The notes beneath the pieces are model-generated. The model did no database searches, was not told the DNA's origin, and was given only the letters and a program-made list of their open reading frames with translations. Of a stretch of DNA of 24,071 bases, positions 16,467-24,071 are shown piece by piece. The stretch's first letter is position 1, and every line of letters begins with the position of its first letter. Source of the stretch: a virus; IMG/VR virus record IMGVR_UViG_3300031565_000367, positions 1 to 24,071 of that record, one strand, 5' to 3'. The position numbers and the translations under genes are program-made.

Positions 16467-16511
16467 CGGGTGCTAAAAATAGAAGACGAAACTGATAAAA
16501 TTACAACTAAT

Positions 16512-16515
16512 GGAG
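16512..16515 (+). promoter_or_regulatory. Shine-Dalgarno GGAG that decides the nrdJ start
   Basis: GGAG lies 5 nt before ATG 16521. The alternative start GTG 16470 has no purine-rich site upstream. Confidence 0.6.
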
Positions 16516-16520
16516 TTGAG

Positions 16521-19028
16521 ATGTTTTCAACAGACGACGTTAATTCTTCCTCTCTAGCCTACTTTAAGGGTGACCAACTTGCCGCAGATTCATTTAGAAA
16601 GAAATATGCATTAAGGGATAAAGATGGAAATTTTCTGGAAAAGAATCCAGACGACATGCATCGAAGATTAGCTTCTGAATTCCACAGAATTGATAATAAA
16701 TTCAAAGCATTGAACAATGATGCTTGTATTTATTCAGAAGATGAATATTTTAACGCGTTGAAGGATTTTAATAAAGTCGTGCCTCAGGGATCGCCAATGA
16801 TGGCGATTGGTAATGATTTTAAAAACGTGAGTGCATCGAATTGCTTTGTTATTGACGCTGAATCGTTTGGTGATTCTATTGGTGGCTTGTTTATGGTCAT
16901 CAATGAAGCTGCGGAAATCATGAAACGCAGGGGTGGTGTTGGTATTGATGTCAGTGTTTATAGACCAATGTATACTACAGTAAACAATGCAGCCGAAATT
17001 TCAGAAGGCGTACCATCGATCTGTGATGCTATTTCATACTTTGGTAGGTATATTGGTCAGCAAGGCCGTCAAGGCGCGCTAATGCTTACCATTAGCGATA
17101 GACATCCTGATATTATTGCGTTTACTAAGATGAAAAGTGATCTAAAGAAGGTCACTGGTGCTAATGTCTCTATTCGTGTGTCTAATGATTTAATTGCTGC
17201 TGTTAAGGAAGATAGAGATTGGGATTTGCAATGGCCGGTTAATACTAGTACCCCAAAGATCACAAAGACAGTGAAGGCTCGTGAAATATGGGATGAAATC
17301 GTACAACAGGCTTGGGGTAATGGCGAGCCCGGATTGTTAATGTGGGACAACTACTGTGAAAATTTACCAGCGCATTGCTATAAAGAAGAAGGATTCACAA
17401 CTCTCACCACTAATCCATGTTCTGAGATTGGCCTTAGTGCCTATGATAGTTGCAGACTCATTTCGATAAATCTTCTTGGGTTTGTCACCAATAAGCATAA
17501 AGATTCCGCCAAATTTACTACTAAAGAATTTATCAAGTATGTTGAAATAGCTATGCAGATGGAAGACAATTTGGTGGAATTGGAAATTGAAATTATAGAT
17601 AAGATTCTTGCTAATATTGAAAAAGATGAAGACGAAGCTAAGCTTCCATATAGTGTACAGAAAAATCTGTGGAATAAAATTAAAGACGCTGCTGTGAAGG
17701 GTAGAAGAACCGGGCTTGGCACGCATGGGCTTGCTGATTGTTTATCGGCATTAGGTCTTGAGTATGGTAGTGCAATGTCGCTCAAGGTTGTTGATAGTAC
17801 TTATCGCTTGTTTAGAGACACTGCATATAGCAAGTCTGTTGATATGGCGAAAGACAGAGGAGCATTTCCTGTTTTTGACTTTGAGAAAGAAAAGAACTGC
17901 GCATTTATCAAGAGGCTTCCAGATCCGTTAGTACGTGCTATGAGCAAGTATGGAAGACGTAATATATCGCTGCTGACTTGTGCACCAACTGGGACCGTTT
18001 CGCTGTTGTCACAAACTAGTTCCGGAATAGAACCTGTTTATGATTACGCTTACATCAGAAAGCGTAAACTTCTCGGTGAAGACCACGTTGCACATCATTC
18101 AATCAACAATGGTGATAGATACATTCACTACGCTGTGATTCATCATGAGCTATTGGCGTGGGCTGAGGAAAATGGCTTTGATAAAGAGGAAATTAGACAA
18201 GCTGTTATCGATAATAGCGTAGCTAAGAATCCAAAATCAGCGATGGATGTCATTAATAAGAAAATTGGTGGTTTGCCGCCACAGTGGAAAGTTACTGCTC
18301 AAACTCTTGATGCTAGAGATAGGCTTAATGTTGTTAGCATTATACAGCAATATATTGATCATGGTATTAGCCAAACATGCAATTTCCCCAGTGGCACATC
18401 GAAAGAAGAAGTTGAAAAATTCTACATCAAGGCGGCGGAATTAGGTCTGAAAGGCGTTACGGTTTACATTGATGGGTCTAGACACGGTGTGCTGACCAGT
18501 TCTGCGAAACAAGAGAAGAAAGTAATAAAAGAGCGCCCGACAGATATAGATTGCAATGTCCATAGAGTCAATGGTTCTGGTTTGGTGTTGGTTGGCCATG
18601 TTGACAATGTAGTTCATGAGATTTTTGTTGGTAATAAAGATGACTTGCCAGTACCGACGAATGCTAAAGATCTCAAAATACGCAGACTTGGATCTAGAGC
18701 GTATGCACTAGTCTATCCTATTAAAACAACGATGGGACAAGTGCACGACGCCATTATTCCAATTCGTGAATCATTTACTCAAGATGAAGGTATGGCGGTG
18801 AGGCTGTTAACAAATCTATCCATCAGAAGCGGGATTGATTTGGAAGTGGTTGTAGAAACGTTAATGAAGAGTGCGGATATCACACACCCAATCAGATGGA
18901 CCGCCAGAGTTCTCAGCAATTACGTGAAGAACGCTAAGATGCATGAGGGCTGCTGCGATGCACCTAATATAGTTTACGAAGACGGCTGTAAGAAGTGTCG
19001 AAATTGTGATTGGTCTAAGTGCAGCTAG
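16521..19028 (+). CDS. nrdJ: Class II (adenosylcobalamin-dependent) ribonucleotide reductase
   Basis: 835 residues from ATG 16521, which has GGAG 5 nt upstream; a GTG at 16470 would add 17. The enzyme reduces ribonucleotides to deoxyribonucleotides for phage DNA synthesis. Active-site residues visible are Cys108 (SNCFV) and Cys311 (DSCRLISINL) as the reducible pair, Cys300 in the NPCSE loop (298-302) as thiyl-radical Cys with Asn298 and Glu302, and the phosphate-binding APTGTVS loop at 488-494. The YIDGSR segment is typical of the cobalamin-dependent branch. The last 26 residues carry six Cys, a zinc/redox tail used for re-reduction. No radical-generating NrdB gene is nearby, in keeping with class II. 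I see no cobalamin riboswitch in the short leader. A strong hairpin follows the stop. No intein is present. Confidence 0.9.
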   Translation: MFSTDDVNSSSLAYFKGDQLAADSFRKKYALRDKDGNFLEKNPDDMHRRLASEFHRIDNKFKALNNDACIYSEDEYFNALKDFNKVVPQGSPMMAIGNDFKNVSASNCFVIDAESFGDSIGGLFMVINEAAEIMKRRGGVGIDVSVYRPMYTTVNNAAEISEGVPSICDAISYFGRYIGQQGRQGALMLTISDRHPDIIAFTKMKSDLKKVTGANVSIRVSNDLIAAVKEDRDWDLQWPVNTSTPKITKTVKAREIWDEIVQQAWGNGEPGLLMWDNYCENLPAHCYKEEGFTTLTTNPCSEIGLSAYDSCRLISINLLGFVTNKHKDSAKFTTKEFIKYVEIAMQMEDNLVELEIEIIDKILANIEKDEDEAKLPYSVQKNLWNKIKDAAVKGRRTGLGTHGLADCLSALGLEYGSAMSLKVVDSTYRLFRDTAYSKSVDMAKDRGAFPVFDFEKEKNCAFIKRLPDPLVRAMSKYGRRNISLLTCAPTGTVSLLSQTSSGIEPVYDYAYIRKRKLLGEDHVAHHSINNGDRYIHYAVIHHELLAWAEENGFDKEEIRQAVIDNSVAKNPKSAMDVINKKIGGLPPQWKVTAQTLDARDRLNVVSIIQQYIDHGISQTCNFPSGTSKEEVEKFYIKAAELGLKGVTVYIDGSRHGVLTSSAKQEKKVIKERPTDIDCNVHRVNGSGLVLVGHVDNVVHEIFVGNKDDLPVPTNAKDLKIRRLGSRAYALVYPIKTTMGQVHDAIIPIRESFTQDEGMAVRLLTNLSIRSGIDLEVVVETLMKSADITHPIRWTARVLSNYVKNAKMHEGCCDAPNIVYEDGCKKCRNCDWSKCS

Positions 19029-21992: not shown

Positions 21993-22808
21993 ATGATAAG
22001 ATATAGCAATCAGGATAAAGAGCTAAATATTCACCCAATATCGGTTGGCGACAAGTACAAAGTTGCTGGCGATGTTAATGGGTTTATATCAAAAGATGAT
22101 ATAATTAAATATCTAGCCGAACATGAATTGCATGGTCCACCCCTTGAACTCAGTGTTGGTGGTGATGTGTTGGTATGGAATACTATAAGAAATACTAGAA
22201 GTACCGACATACGCGCTTATGTCAATGTTGCCGGTACGGTTGCCGAATGTGACGTTACTGTAACACGTAATGGATGTAGTAGCGAATTAGTAGAGGCTAA
22301 AGATAATATAACATCCAGAAAACTAGTATACGATGCTAATGTGATTTTTGAGAAATCGCTGCTATTTTTTGAAGAAAAAGAGAAGTTGCGATCCATTCCA
22401 GATTACAGTAATGATATTAAATTAGCATTAAAAGAAGAATTTAGCAACATAATAGTCATGGATGACATTGACTTGATGGGTGATGATAAATGCAAATCGG
22501 CTTATATACCGGTCCAAATTATAGAGGATGGCGAACTGTCGCCAATGGTAGCTGCGAAAGTGCTAGTATCAGATGGCGAAATTAATATCGATGATGTTAA
22601 GAGCAAGGTGATGCACTTGAAGGAAATGCATTTTGGTAGAATTGGAAATAAAGCAGAAAAAGTTGCCAAGAAAACTAGGCTGAGTTATAGAAAAACAAAG
22701 AACAATAAAAGTTCTTCCAAGAAGCCTAAGAATTTTAAAAATTCTATCAATGTAAGCAGAAGTCAGACAAATCAACGTAAGAAAAAAGAAGAAAAATCGG
22801 ATGAGTAG
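21993..22808 (+). CDS. Protein of unknown function with Lys-rich C-terminal tail
   Basis: 271 residues starting 2 nt after the sigma gene. The body (1-215) alternates short strands and helices, with several Asp/Glu clusters and no motif I know. Residues 216-271 are Lys/Arg/Asn/Ser-rich and probably disordered; this tail would bind nucleic acid or an acidic partner. The stop overlaps the next ATG by 8 nt. It lies between the late sigma factor and the packaging genes. A co-activator role like T4 gp33, or a packaging accessory role, would fit the place, but the size differs from gp33 (112 residues), so I leave it unnamed. Confidence 0.65.
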   Translation: MIRYSNQDKELNIHPISVGDKYKVAGDVNGFISKDDIIKYLAEHELHGPPLELSVGGDVLVWNTIRNTRSTDIRAYVNVAGTVAECDVTVTRNGCSSELVEAKDNITSRKLVYDANVIFEKSLLFFEEKEKLRSIPDYSNDIKLALKEEFSNIIVMDDIDLMGDDKCKSAYIPVQIIEDGELSPMVAAKVLVSDGEINIDDVKSKVMHLKEMHFGRIGNKAEKVAKKTRLSYRKTKNNKSSSKKPKNFKNSINVSRSQTNQRKKKEEKSDE

Positions 22809-23433
22809 TGACGACGAAATCAATATAGACATACCAGACGAACTGGCCGATTTGCTAGATAGAGTTTCTGATAAGCCAAAACAAGTGCCACAACCAAAGG
22901 AAATAGTAGAACCGAAAATAGAAAAGCCAAATAGTAAGAAGTTAAAGCACGACGAGACAACACGTAGTGAGGTTCTGGATACTGAAATTATTGATGTGTC
23001 TGGTAATATAGAGAGCGATAGAGAAATAGTAGCTGATGTTCGCAGAGTTGGAGACAATCCAGTAGATGCGTTTGAAGCTGCCAATGAAGAAGTACAGCTC
23101 GATGAATTAGATGAAAAATTAACTGAGAAAATCTTTACCACATTTACTGATATTATTAATGATTGCAATTTGGACAGAGAAGAAGCTCAGCATGCTATAA
23201 ATGGCTTAAGGCAAGAATTTGAGGATAACGTTGCTAGAAGAGATATTGTTGTTGAAGGCTATATTTCTGCTATTCAAACAAAGGCAACTGCACTTAACAC
23301 CAAAGTAAGAGCGGCTGAACTACTTGTTAAACTAAAAAATTCCCGTAAGAGCAATATTAGCATTAAAGATAGCAATGTTCTTATACCAGAACAAGCATTA
23401 CATGATATACTAAATAAGAAAAAGAAGAAGTAG
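22801..23433 (+). CDS. Probable terminase small subunit
   Basis: 210 residues ending 5 nt before the large terminase, the usual place of the small subunit that recognises phage DNA and stimulates the motor. The first 100 residues are very acidic and probably disordered. The middle (about 105-180) is helical, with a coiled-coil-like stretch (DREEAQHAINGLRQEFEDN ... AELLVKLKNSRK), like the central oligomerisation helices of T4 gp16. The last residues are Lys-rich (NKKKKK). No HTH motif is certain. The assignment is by position and helical pattern, so moderate. Confidence 0.5.
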   Translation: MSSDDEINIDIPDELADLLDRVSDKPKQVPQPKEIVEPKIEKPNSKKLKHDETTRSEVLDTEIIDVSGNIESDREIVADVRRVGDNPVDAFEAANEEVQLDELDEKLTEKIFTTFTDIINDCNLDREEAQHAINGLRQEFEDNVARRDIVVEGYISAIQTKATALNTKVRAAELLVKLKNSRKSNISIKDSNVLIPEQALHDILNKKKKK

Positions 23434-23438
23434 CTTGA

Positions 23439-24071
23439 ATGAATCCAACAGTAGTCAAAATACTGGAGAAGTGTAAAGAATCTCCCGAGTTCTTTATTGA
23501 AAACTTCTGCACTGTTGAGCACCCAACTGCAGGAGTTATGCCATTTAAATTATTTTCATACCAACTAGATGTTTTAAGAGACTACAGAGAAAATCGCTTT
23601 AACATATTTAAAAAGTGTCGTCAATGTGGTATATCAACATTGACTGGGGCATATGCGTTATGGACCGCTATGTTCAGCACGAATAAGAAAATATTGGTTG
23701 TATCAAAGACAGATGAAGATGCGAAAGAGTTCTTGAAAAAGAACGTTAAGGGTGTTTTTGATAGACTACCGCAGTTTTTGAAAGACATATTTCATGATGA
23801 AACTTGCACATATAATGCACACGAAATTTCTTTTAGATCTAAAAGCACAATTAAGTCTCATACTTCCAACCCAGAAACCTTAAGATCATCATCGGCTAAA
23901 TTGGTGATTATCGATGAAGCTGCATTCATGCAGCATATGGAAGACATGTGGGCTGGAGGGCAACAATGTGTCTCTTTTGGAACGTTATTGTCAACTAGCG
24001 ATGGCTTAATAGATATTGGTGATATTGTTGATAAATCAAGAATTAAAAATTTCACCAAGGGTGATTTGAAT
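23439..24071 (+). CDS. Terminase large subunit, gp17-like, interrupted by an intein (3' end outside window)
   Basis: 211 codons are visible from ATG 23439, 5 nt after the previous stop; the frame runs off the window. The protein is the packaging ATPase/nuclease that pumps DNA into the head. The ATPase N-terminus is typical: an adenine-type aromatic/Gln motif (FSYQLDVLRDY, about 39-49), a Walker-A-like loop Arg61-Gln62-Cys-Gly64-Ile-Ser66-Thr67, and Walker B LVIIDEAAF with Asp159 and Glu160. After Trp-Ala-Gly-Gly-Gln-Gln (171-176) the terminase pattern stops and an intein N-terminal block begins at Cys177. The rest of the ATPase, the coupling motif and the nuclease domain must lie beyond the intein, outside the window. 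Confidence 0.85.
   Translation, partial: MNPTVVKILEKCKESPEFFIENFCTVEHPTAGVMPFKLFSYQLDVLRDYRENRFNIFKKCRQCGISTLTGAYALWTAMFSTNKKILVVSKTDEDAKEFLKKNVKGVFDRLPQFLKDIFHDETCTYNAHEISFRSKSTIKSHTSNPETLRSSSAKLVIIDEAAFMQHMEDMWAGGQQCVSFGTLLSTSDGLIDIGDIVDKSRIKNFTKGDLN
23967..24071 (+). mobile_element. N-terminal end of an intein inside the large terminase
   Basis: Thirty-five residues from Cys177 of the terminase frame. The first 21 (C-V-S-F-G-T-L-L ... D-G-L-I-D-I-G-D-I-V) match intein block A: Cys1, hydrophobic residue 2, Thr6, hydrophobic 7 and 8, Gly13, then Ile17 and Ile20. The sequence before it ends like a terminase just after Walker B, and what follows does not continue the expected strand and Ser-Thr-x-x-Asn-Gly coupling motif. 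Terminase inteins are known near this ATP-site region. Whether a homing-endonuclease domain is present cannot be seen. Confidence 0.82.

Follow-up and report, generated by a model that had tools for sequence, protein, structure and literature searches.

Terminase gene at the end of the record

The stretch analysed here (the window) is a complete IMG/VR record of 24,071 bases that ends within a gene for the large terminase subunit, TerL. The TerL frame (23439-24071) encodes 211 residues and is open at its 3' end, because the record stops 105 nt into an intein (Table 1). The preceding gene is a candidate small terminase by position only; it matched no PHROG family up to an E-value of 0.01 and no Pfam model over its cut-off. 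The N-extein had tblastn matches in 2342 phage records. With the TerL fragment, NCBIfam searches returned a terminase model only, at 29.4 bits, far under its cut-off of 150, and Pfam searches up to E 0.1 returned only ATPase/terminase-type families; Terminase_6N, with the single sequence, reached 19.2 bits, under its 22-bit cut-off. No NCBIfam intein model matched the fragment in a search up to E 10, so the intein that the initial annotation called from 35 residues was unprovable inside the window, although the call was right.

The P-loop of the window TerL reads RQCGIST instead of RQxGK[ST], with Ile in place of the classic Lys and a conserved Lys at its upstream end. The upstream Lys is present in all six T4-like sequences that lack the classic one (window, Mel-JY01, immuto, RM378, LR756508, LR756511), as it is in the 16 IMG/VR relatives printed in the alignment (16/16), all of them without the classic Lys. 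In PA5oct, S-H38, Miro, XacN1, and Marshall, the classic Lys is present and the upstream Lys is absent. In this respect the P-loop of the window is similar to that of lambda gpA, whose Walker A is also deviant.

Table 1. Features of the window and loci with an intein at the same TerL residue
Feature	Position or loci	Strand	Basis
Class II ribonucleotide reductase, NrdJ	16470-19028		TIGR02504 over cut-off
Gene directly 5' of TerL, 210 aa, candidate small terminase by position only	22801-23433	+	ORF
TerL N-extein, T4-like large terminase, residues 1-176	23439-23966	+	PHROG terminase families, best 1.1e-34
P-loop (Walker A) region KCRQCGIST, residues 59-67	23613-23639	+	Alignments
Walker B LVIIDE, residues 155-160	23901-23918	+	Alignment; D159/E160 correspond to T4 gp17 D255/E256
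Intein, first 35 of 412 residues, block A onwards	23967-24071	+	Read-through in L002; models on full element
Eight same-residue intein loci	L145 (the L002 contig), L102, L103, L108 and L134 (one contig), L109 and L133 (the L023 contig), L118

Read-through of the intein in sibling contigs

Single-sequence IMG/VR scans with the N-extein, intein, and C-extein matched only two sibling contigs. L002, which differs from the window at 7 positions over 5,633 common nucleotides, contains the remaining 1131 nt of the intein beyond the record end. Its TerL precursor is one uninterrupted frame of 1,068 aa, consisting of a 176-aa N-extein, a 412-aa intein (C177-N588; 5529-6764 in L002), and a 480-aa C-extein with Thr589 as the +1 residue. 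The junctions read QQ/C...HN/T (slashes mark the splice points); the intein ends ...YIANGFISHN/T, and TerL then resumes. L003, the third contig of the population, carries an identical intein and has 3 mismatches to L002 in 5,154 nt. The frame thus neither stops early nor continues as ordinary terminase without blocks F and G, and both outcomes that the initial annotation had set against an intein are excluded by L002.

As that annotation had proposed, Cys177 (23967-23969) starts intein block A: the residues from there are CVSFGTLLSTSDGLIDIGDIV, with T6, G13, I17, and I20 in place. Reading past position 24071 in L002 revealed block B (TxxH, as ATSDH) and blocks F and G (HTGDISVPETSTYIANGFISHN/T), which end in His-Asn with Thr at +1. 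On the 412 aa, four intein and LAGLIDADG models scored over their curated cut-offs: intein_Nterm (TIGR01445; 34.4 bits, cut-off 24.5), intein_Cterm (TIGR01443; 25.4 bits, cut-off 15.6), Intein_splicing (PF14890; 51.8 bits, cut-off 35.8), and LAGLIDADG_3 (PF14528; 72.1 bits, cut-off 22.5). C1, H73, D394, H411, and N412 were invariant in an alignment of 29 intein sequences. Under the class definitions of inteins, the element is assigned to class 1 because Cys1 and the terminal His-Asn are present. Its G+C content is 32.4%, compared with 36.7% and 39.2% for the exteins.

The AlphaFold model of the intein, built on the 29-sequence alignment, had a pLDDT of 94.6 and a pTM of 0.93. The best Foldseek matches of this predicted model, both over the full length, were the TliVMA intein (7qss, E 3.7e-23) and PI-PfuI (1dq3, E 5.3e-23), and the best sixteen PDB rows were all endonuclease-bearing inteins (TliVMA, PhoVMA, PI-PfuI, intein homing endonuclease II, PI-SceI). 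The GyrA intein (1am2) and a splicing intermediate (4oz6) were superposed at 2.0 Å and 1.7 Å, respectively, each over 106 columns. The 412-aa intein is thus predicted to have the Hint fold. Whether the element carries an endonuclease, which the initial annotation had left as a question, is answered by the PF14528 match, the fold match, and two motifs, NLAEIIGYYIGDG (115-127) and AFLRGLFEADG (215-225), both with the acidic catalytic residue.

The host gene had been called a large terminase, and this was borne out. A profile of the extein and six relatives matched the T4 gp17 structures 3ezk (6.7e-106; residues 99-564 of 577) and 3cpe (4.2e-104), and a T4-type portal gene lies directly 3' of TerL (PF07230, 9.1e-73). 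By homology of both the ATPase and the nuclease domain and by the adjoining portal gene, TerL is a T4-like large terminase of the gp17 family.

Two of the three contigs of the population end within a 154-nt zone at the intein start (window 23918-24071; L003 1-154): the window ends 105 nt inside the intein, and L003 starts 49 nt 5' of it. A mixture of intein-plus and intein-minus genomes could be the cause. A degenerate pattern across the joined site, designed for an intein-minus strain of this population, had 0 matches in IMG/VR.

Insertion site between Walker B and motif III

The initial annotation placed the intein at the end of the helix after Walker B, and the alignment agrees: the insertion site, WAGGQQ/TLMHGG, lies between Walker B and motif III and corresponds to T4 gp17 272/273 (Walker B at 255/256; motif III TTT from 285). 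The intein-free Mel-JY01, immuto, and RM378 read QQTLATGG at the site. The extein matched 2,494 phage records; in a spread sample of 60 of these, 59 alignments crossed the site in one piece, and the remaining one (H214) ended before it. The best 60 of the 2,494, many of one species, all crossed the site unbroken. Fourteen of the 48 nt around the site were invariant across 21 sequences, all but one of them at codon positions 1 or 2. Among relatives with an empty site, L143 had the site DNA most like that of the window, agreeing at 36 of the 48 positions.

TerL has long been known as an intein host, and this kind of element is already known. In the open literature searched, supplements and figures aside, the portions of text available name no intein at WAGGQQ/TLMHGG in a T4-like terminase. 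TerL inteins are reported in other jumbo phages (PMC7412058) and in crAss-like phages (PMC7886860), where the accessible text gives no placeable site. As far as this search reaches, the exact site and its recurrence look new for T4-like terminases.

Alleles at the same residue

Relatives beyond the siblings were reached with a four-sequence intein alignment and two-row extein alignments. After removal of L101 and L131, both from the population of the window, from the 72 loci that the extein alignments returned, 70 TerL loci were compared. The site was occupied at eight loci from six contigs and spanned empty at 61, which include distant, weakly aligned loci and a few from the same contig; L149 falls short of it. 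Among the matches listed (78 of at least 80 loci of the intein alignment, the other two being from the population of the window), L023 was found at the same residue. Since L108 and L109 are near-identical (1 base different in 4,561 overlapping), IMG/VR holds five distinct alleles at this residue, that of the window included. Their inteins comprise 412 (window allele), 413 (L102), 470 (L103), 461 (L108/L109), and 479 aa (L118, in a 395-kb contig). The sole difference between L108 and L109 is the last intein codon, which encodes Asn in L109 (1948-1950) and Lys in L108 (5726-5728). The intein of L108, unlike that of the window, therefore ends in Lys instead of Asn, which reflects a sequencing error or else a natural change at a residue that is critical for splicing.

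The other alleles (L102, L103, L108/L109, L118) share with the window the insertion residue, Cys1, Thr+1, the LAGLIDADG region, and the TerL clade. Intein and extein identities to L002 were 65 and 55% for L102, 42 and 49% for L103, 43 and 45% for L108/L109, and 35 and 47% for L118; apart from L002/L102 and the near-identical L108/L109, each pair was more similar in its exteins than in its inteins. Unlike the window allele, the inteins of L103, L108, L109, and L118 have an extra segment with two CxxC pairs, and TerL of L103, L108, and L109 carries a P-loop insert besides the intein at the present site. The two-CxxC segment is zinc-ribbon-like and precedes the first LAGLIDADG motif; it is absent from the window allele and L102.

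On a C-extein tree of 26 rows, five with intein and near-duplicates left out, carriers and non-carriers were intermixed, and the presence or absence of the intein needed at least four changes, of which the starred branches force only two. In this tree, RM378 has a very long branch, no single branch sets the outgroup apart, and the L114 row starts within the last part of the insert that L114 has in motif III. The distribution could not be told apart from that of shuffled labels (125 of 500 shuffles were as low). The window allele and L102 were sisters by extein, so no transfer is required between these two.

Other insertion points in the same gene

Among the matches listed, at least 13 loci have an intein that ends HN/TGG, three residues 3' of the present site and ahead of the position that corresponds to His180 (179/180). 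Both junctions were found in 12 of the loci listed (L027, L033-L036, L040, L074, L081, L086, L092, L094, L097) and the downstream HN/TGG junction only in L071. In 7 of the 13 loci listed (L035, L036, L071, L081, L086, L092, L097), LIS/CVTED or LIS/CVTDD comes next, which looks like the start of another intein within the motif III strand. The extein match restarts at residue 189 in all seven, which makes 188/189 a third insertion point. From Walker B to motif III there are thus at least three places of insertion in a span of about 12 residues (176/177, 179/180, 188/189). L111, L112, L119, and L123 have P-loop inserts only.

Endonuclease and mobility

Both motifs are intact in the window allele (GYYIGDG and GLFEADG) and in L102, L103, L108, and L109, and L118 has lost the Asp of both (NGAG, EASC). 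Between L002 and L102, identity was 69% in the endonuclease region, 58% in the first 100 intein residues, 68% in the N-extein, and 51% in the C-extein; between L103 and L109 it was 44% in the endonuclease region versus 69 and 57% in the exteins. In dN/dS comparisons of the endonuclease, dS was saturated or undefined, and selection on the endonuclease is therefore only suggested. Homing elements pass through a cycle of invasion, fixation, and decay; the allele set fits this cycle but does not prove it. The intein is probably homing-competent.

Proposed splicing and homing

The TerL precursor would be translated whole. Cys1 would begin an N-S acyl shift, after which the chain would move to Thr+1; Asn412 would then cyclise with the assistance of His411, and the exteins would join, restoring the ATPase core ahead of motor assembly. 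In relatives infecting the same cell, the endonuclease would cleave the site that lacks the intein; copying of the intein into this site would then account for its patchy distribution. TerL is a favourable target for inteins, since imprecise loss or failed splicing would abolish packaging. Because the insert separates residues needed for ATP hydrolysis, packaging very probably requires prior splicing of TerL.

Weighing of alternative readings

The frame continuity, the splicing blocks, both endonuclease motifs, the same-site alleles, and the empty sites are established at the level of sequence, and we are confident that the window ends with the 5' part of a complete class 1 intein, which has a LAGLIDADG homing endonuclease nested in it and lies in frame in the ATPase domain of TerL. 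A different origin, as a group I intron or as a free-standing endonuclease brought in by misassembly, gains something from the contig ends clustered at the element, since two of three contigs could end so at an assembly problem. Yet the frame is unbroken through 1068 aa in L002 and likewise in L003, the HN/T junction is exact and the Hint fold is predicted, and the same junction residue recurs in other alleles from different contigs; we consider this origin ruled out for all practical purposes by the open frame, the splicing blocks, and the predicted fold. An intein that is real but immobile, which splices, has an inactive endonuclease, and is vertically inherited, is unlikely but deserves more weight. 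Its presence and absence are not clustered on the tree differently from shuffles, the intein common to the window allele and its extein sister L102 needs no transfer, and L118 demonstrates that decay happens at this site. Against immobility stand the motifs intact in the window allele and four other loci (L102, L103, L108, L109), an endonuclease region that, between L002 and L102, matches the N-extein in conservation, and the mixing of carriers and non-carriers on the tree.

An intein in the ATPase core should, to judge from the site, leave a precursor that does not package, and an oxidative-stress-sensing intein has been reported in a mycobacterial DnaB helicase (accessible text of PMC6195587). 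Both points would suit a regulatory switch that delays TerL until late infection or a host signal. We nevertheless regard such a switch as highly improbable: in a reporter, each of the five mycobacteriophage TerL-type inteins that were tested spliced readily (accessible text of PMC5050341), the site is free of an intein in 61 of the 70 related TerL loci, no carrier-specific sensor feature was noticed in passing, and the P-loop CxxC also occurs in intein-free relatives such as L104. Control of packaging timing by splicing, which the initial annotation had suggested, is possible but unsupported. The combined proposal that the segment is a recurrent, undescribed intein landing zone and that splicing gates motor assembly, with packaging waiting for it, is likewise very doubtful.

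The intein marks a defined, repeatedly occupied site that lies between Walker B and motif III of T4-like packaging motors; relatives with and without an intein there are available, as are intact and eroded endonucleases. This set of carriers and non-carriers makes homing, decay, and any effect of splicing on motor assembly directly testable. In practical terms, terminase calls on metagenome contigs can end early at such inteins.

Comparison with known inteins

The mycobacteriophage inteins TerL1-a to -e, TerL6-f, and Pham3880-g also lie in the TerL ATPase domain, in terminase families other than that of the window (PMC5050341, as far as its available text describes them). Five of the seven were tested for splicing, a precursor was readily visible for one of these five, and the two assayed for cleavage both cut (same text). 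Their sites a, b, and g are separated from the present site by description only, and the description of sites e (Walker B) and f (C-motif) suggests that they, too, differ from it (same text).

Within T4-like TerL of jumbo phages and Kuttervirus, inteins occur in RaK2, K64-1, fENko-Kae01, Marshall, and Maynard. Those of RaK2 and K64-1 are reported to combine Hint with LAGLIDADG (PF14528; available text of PMC5259590). The site set out by the initial annotation was compared with three of these, and it differs from them: RaK2, fENko-Kae01, and Marshall (Cys110-Asn268, 159 aa, per annotation) have the intein in the P-loop, as do Perkons and KLEB27-3. In PhiXhv-12 the intein precedes the P-loop by 8 alignment columns. 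The intein of the crAss-like cr56_1 TerL is at a different place, downstream of the present site, and has stops in frame under table 11. In Agrobacterium phage Atu_ph07 (L257), TerL is encoded by two ORFs (280-651 and 663-2471) split at the P-loop; the first had no model match, and the opening region of the second ends FYTNGILSHN/T (intein_Cterm 19.5 bits, cut-off 15.6), which makes the L257 terminase a candidate host of a split intein.

Among cellular sequences, inteins of class II ribonucleotide reductases (APTG/C...N/TI), in another host gene than TerL, figured prominently in the best matches (24.6-31.3% identity); all three frames checked scored over the NrdJ model cut-off. The APTGTV motif, which is the intein site in these cellular NrdJ homologues, is uninterrupted in NrdJ of the window. 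TliVMA (7qss), PI-PfuI (1dq3), and PI-SceI resemble the intein of the window in combining the splicing fold with a two-motif LAGLIDADG endonuclease; the archaeal VMA, PI-PfuI, and PI-SceI inteins reside in other host proteins and share 11-19% identity with it over the structural alignments.
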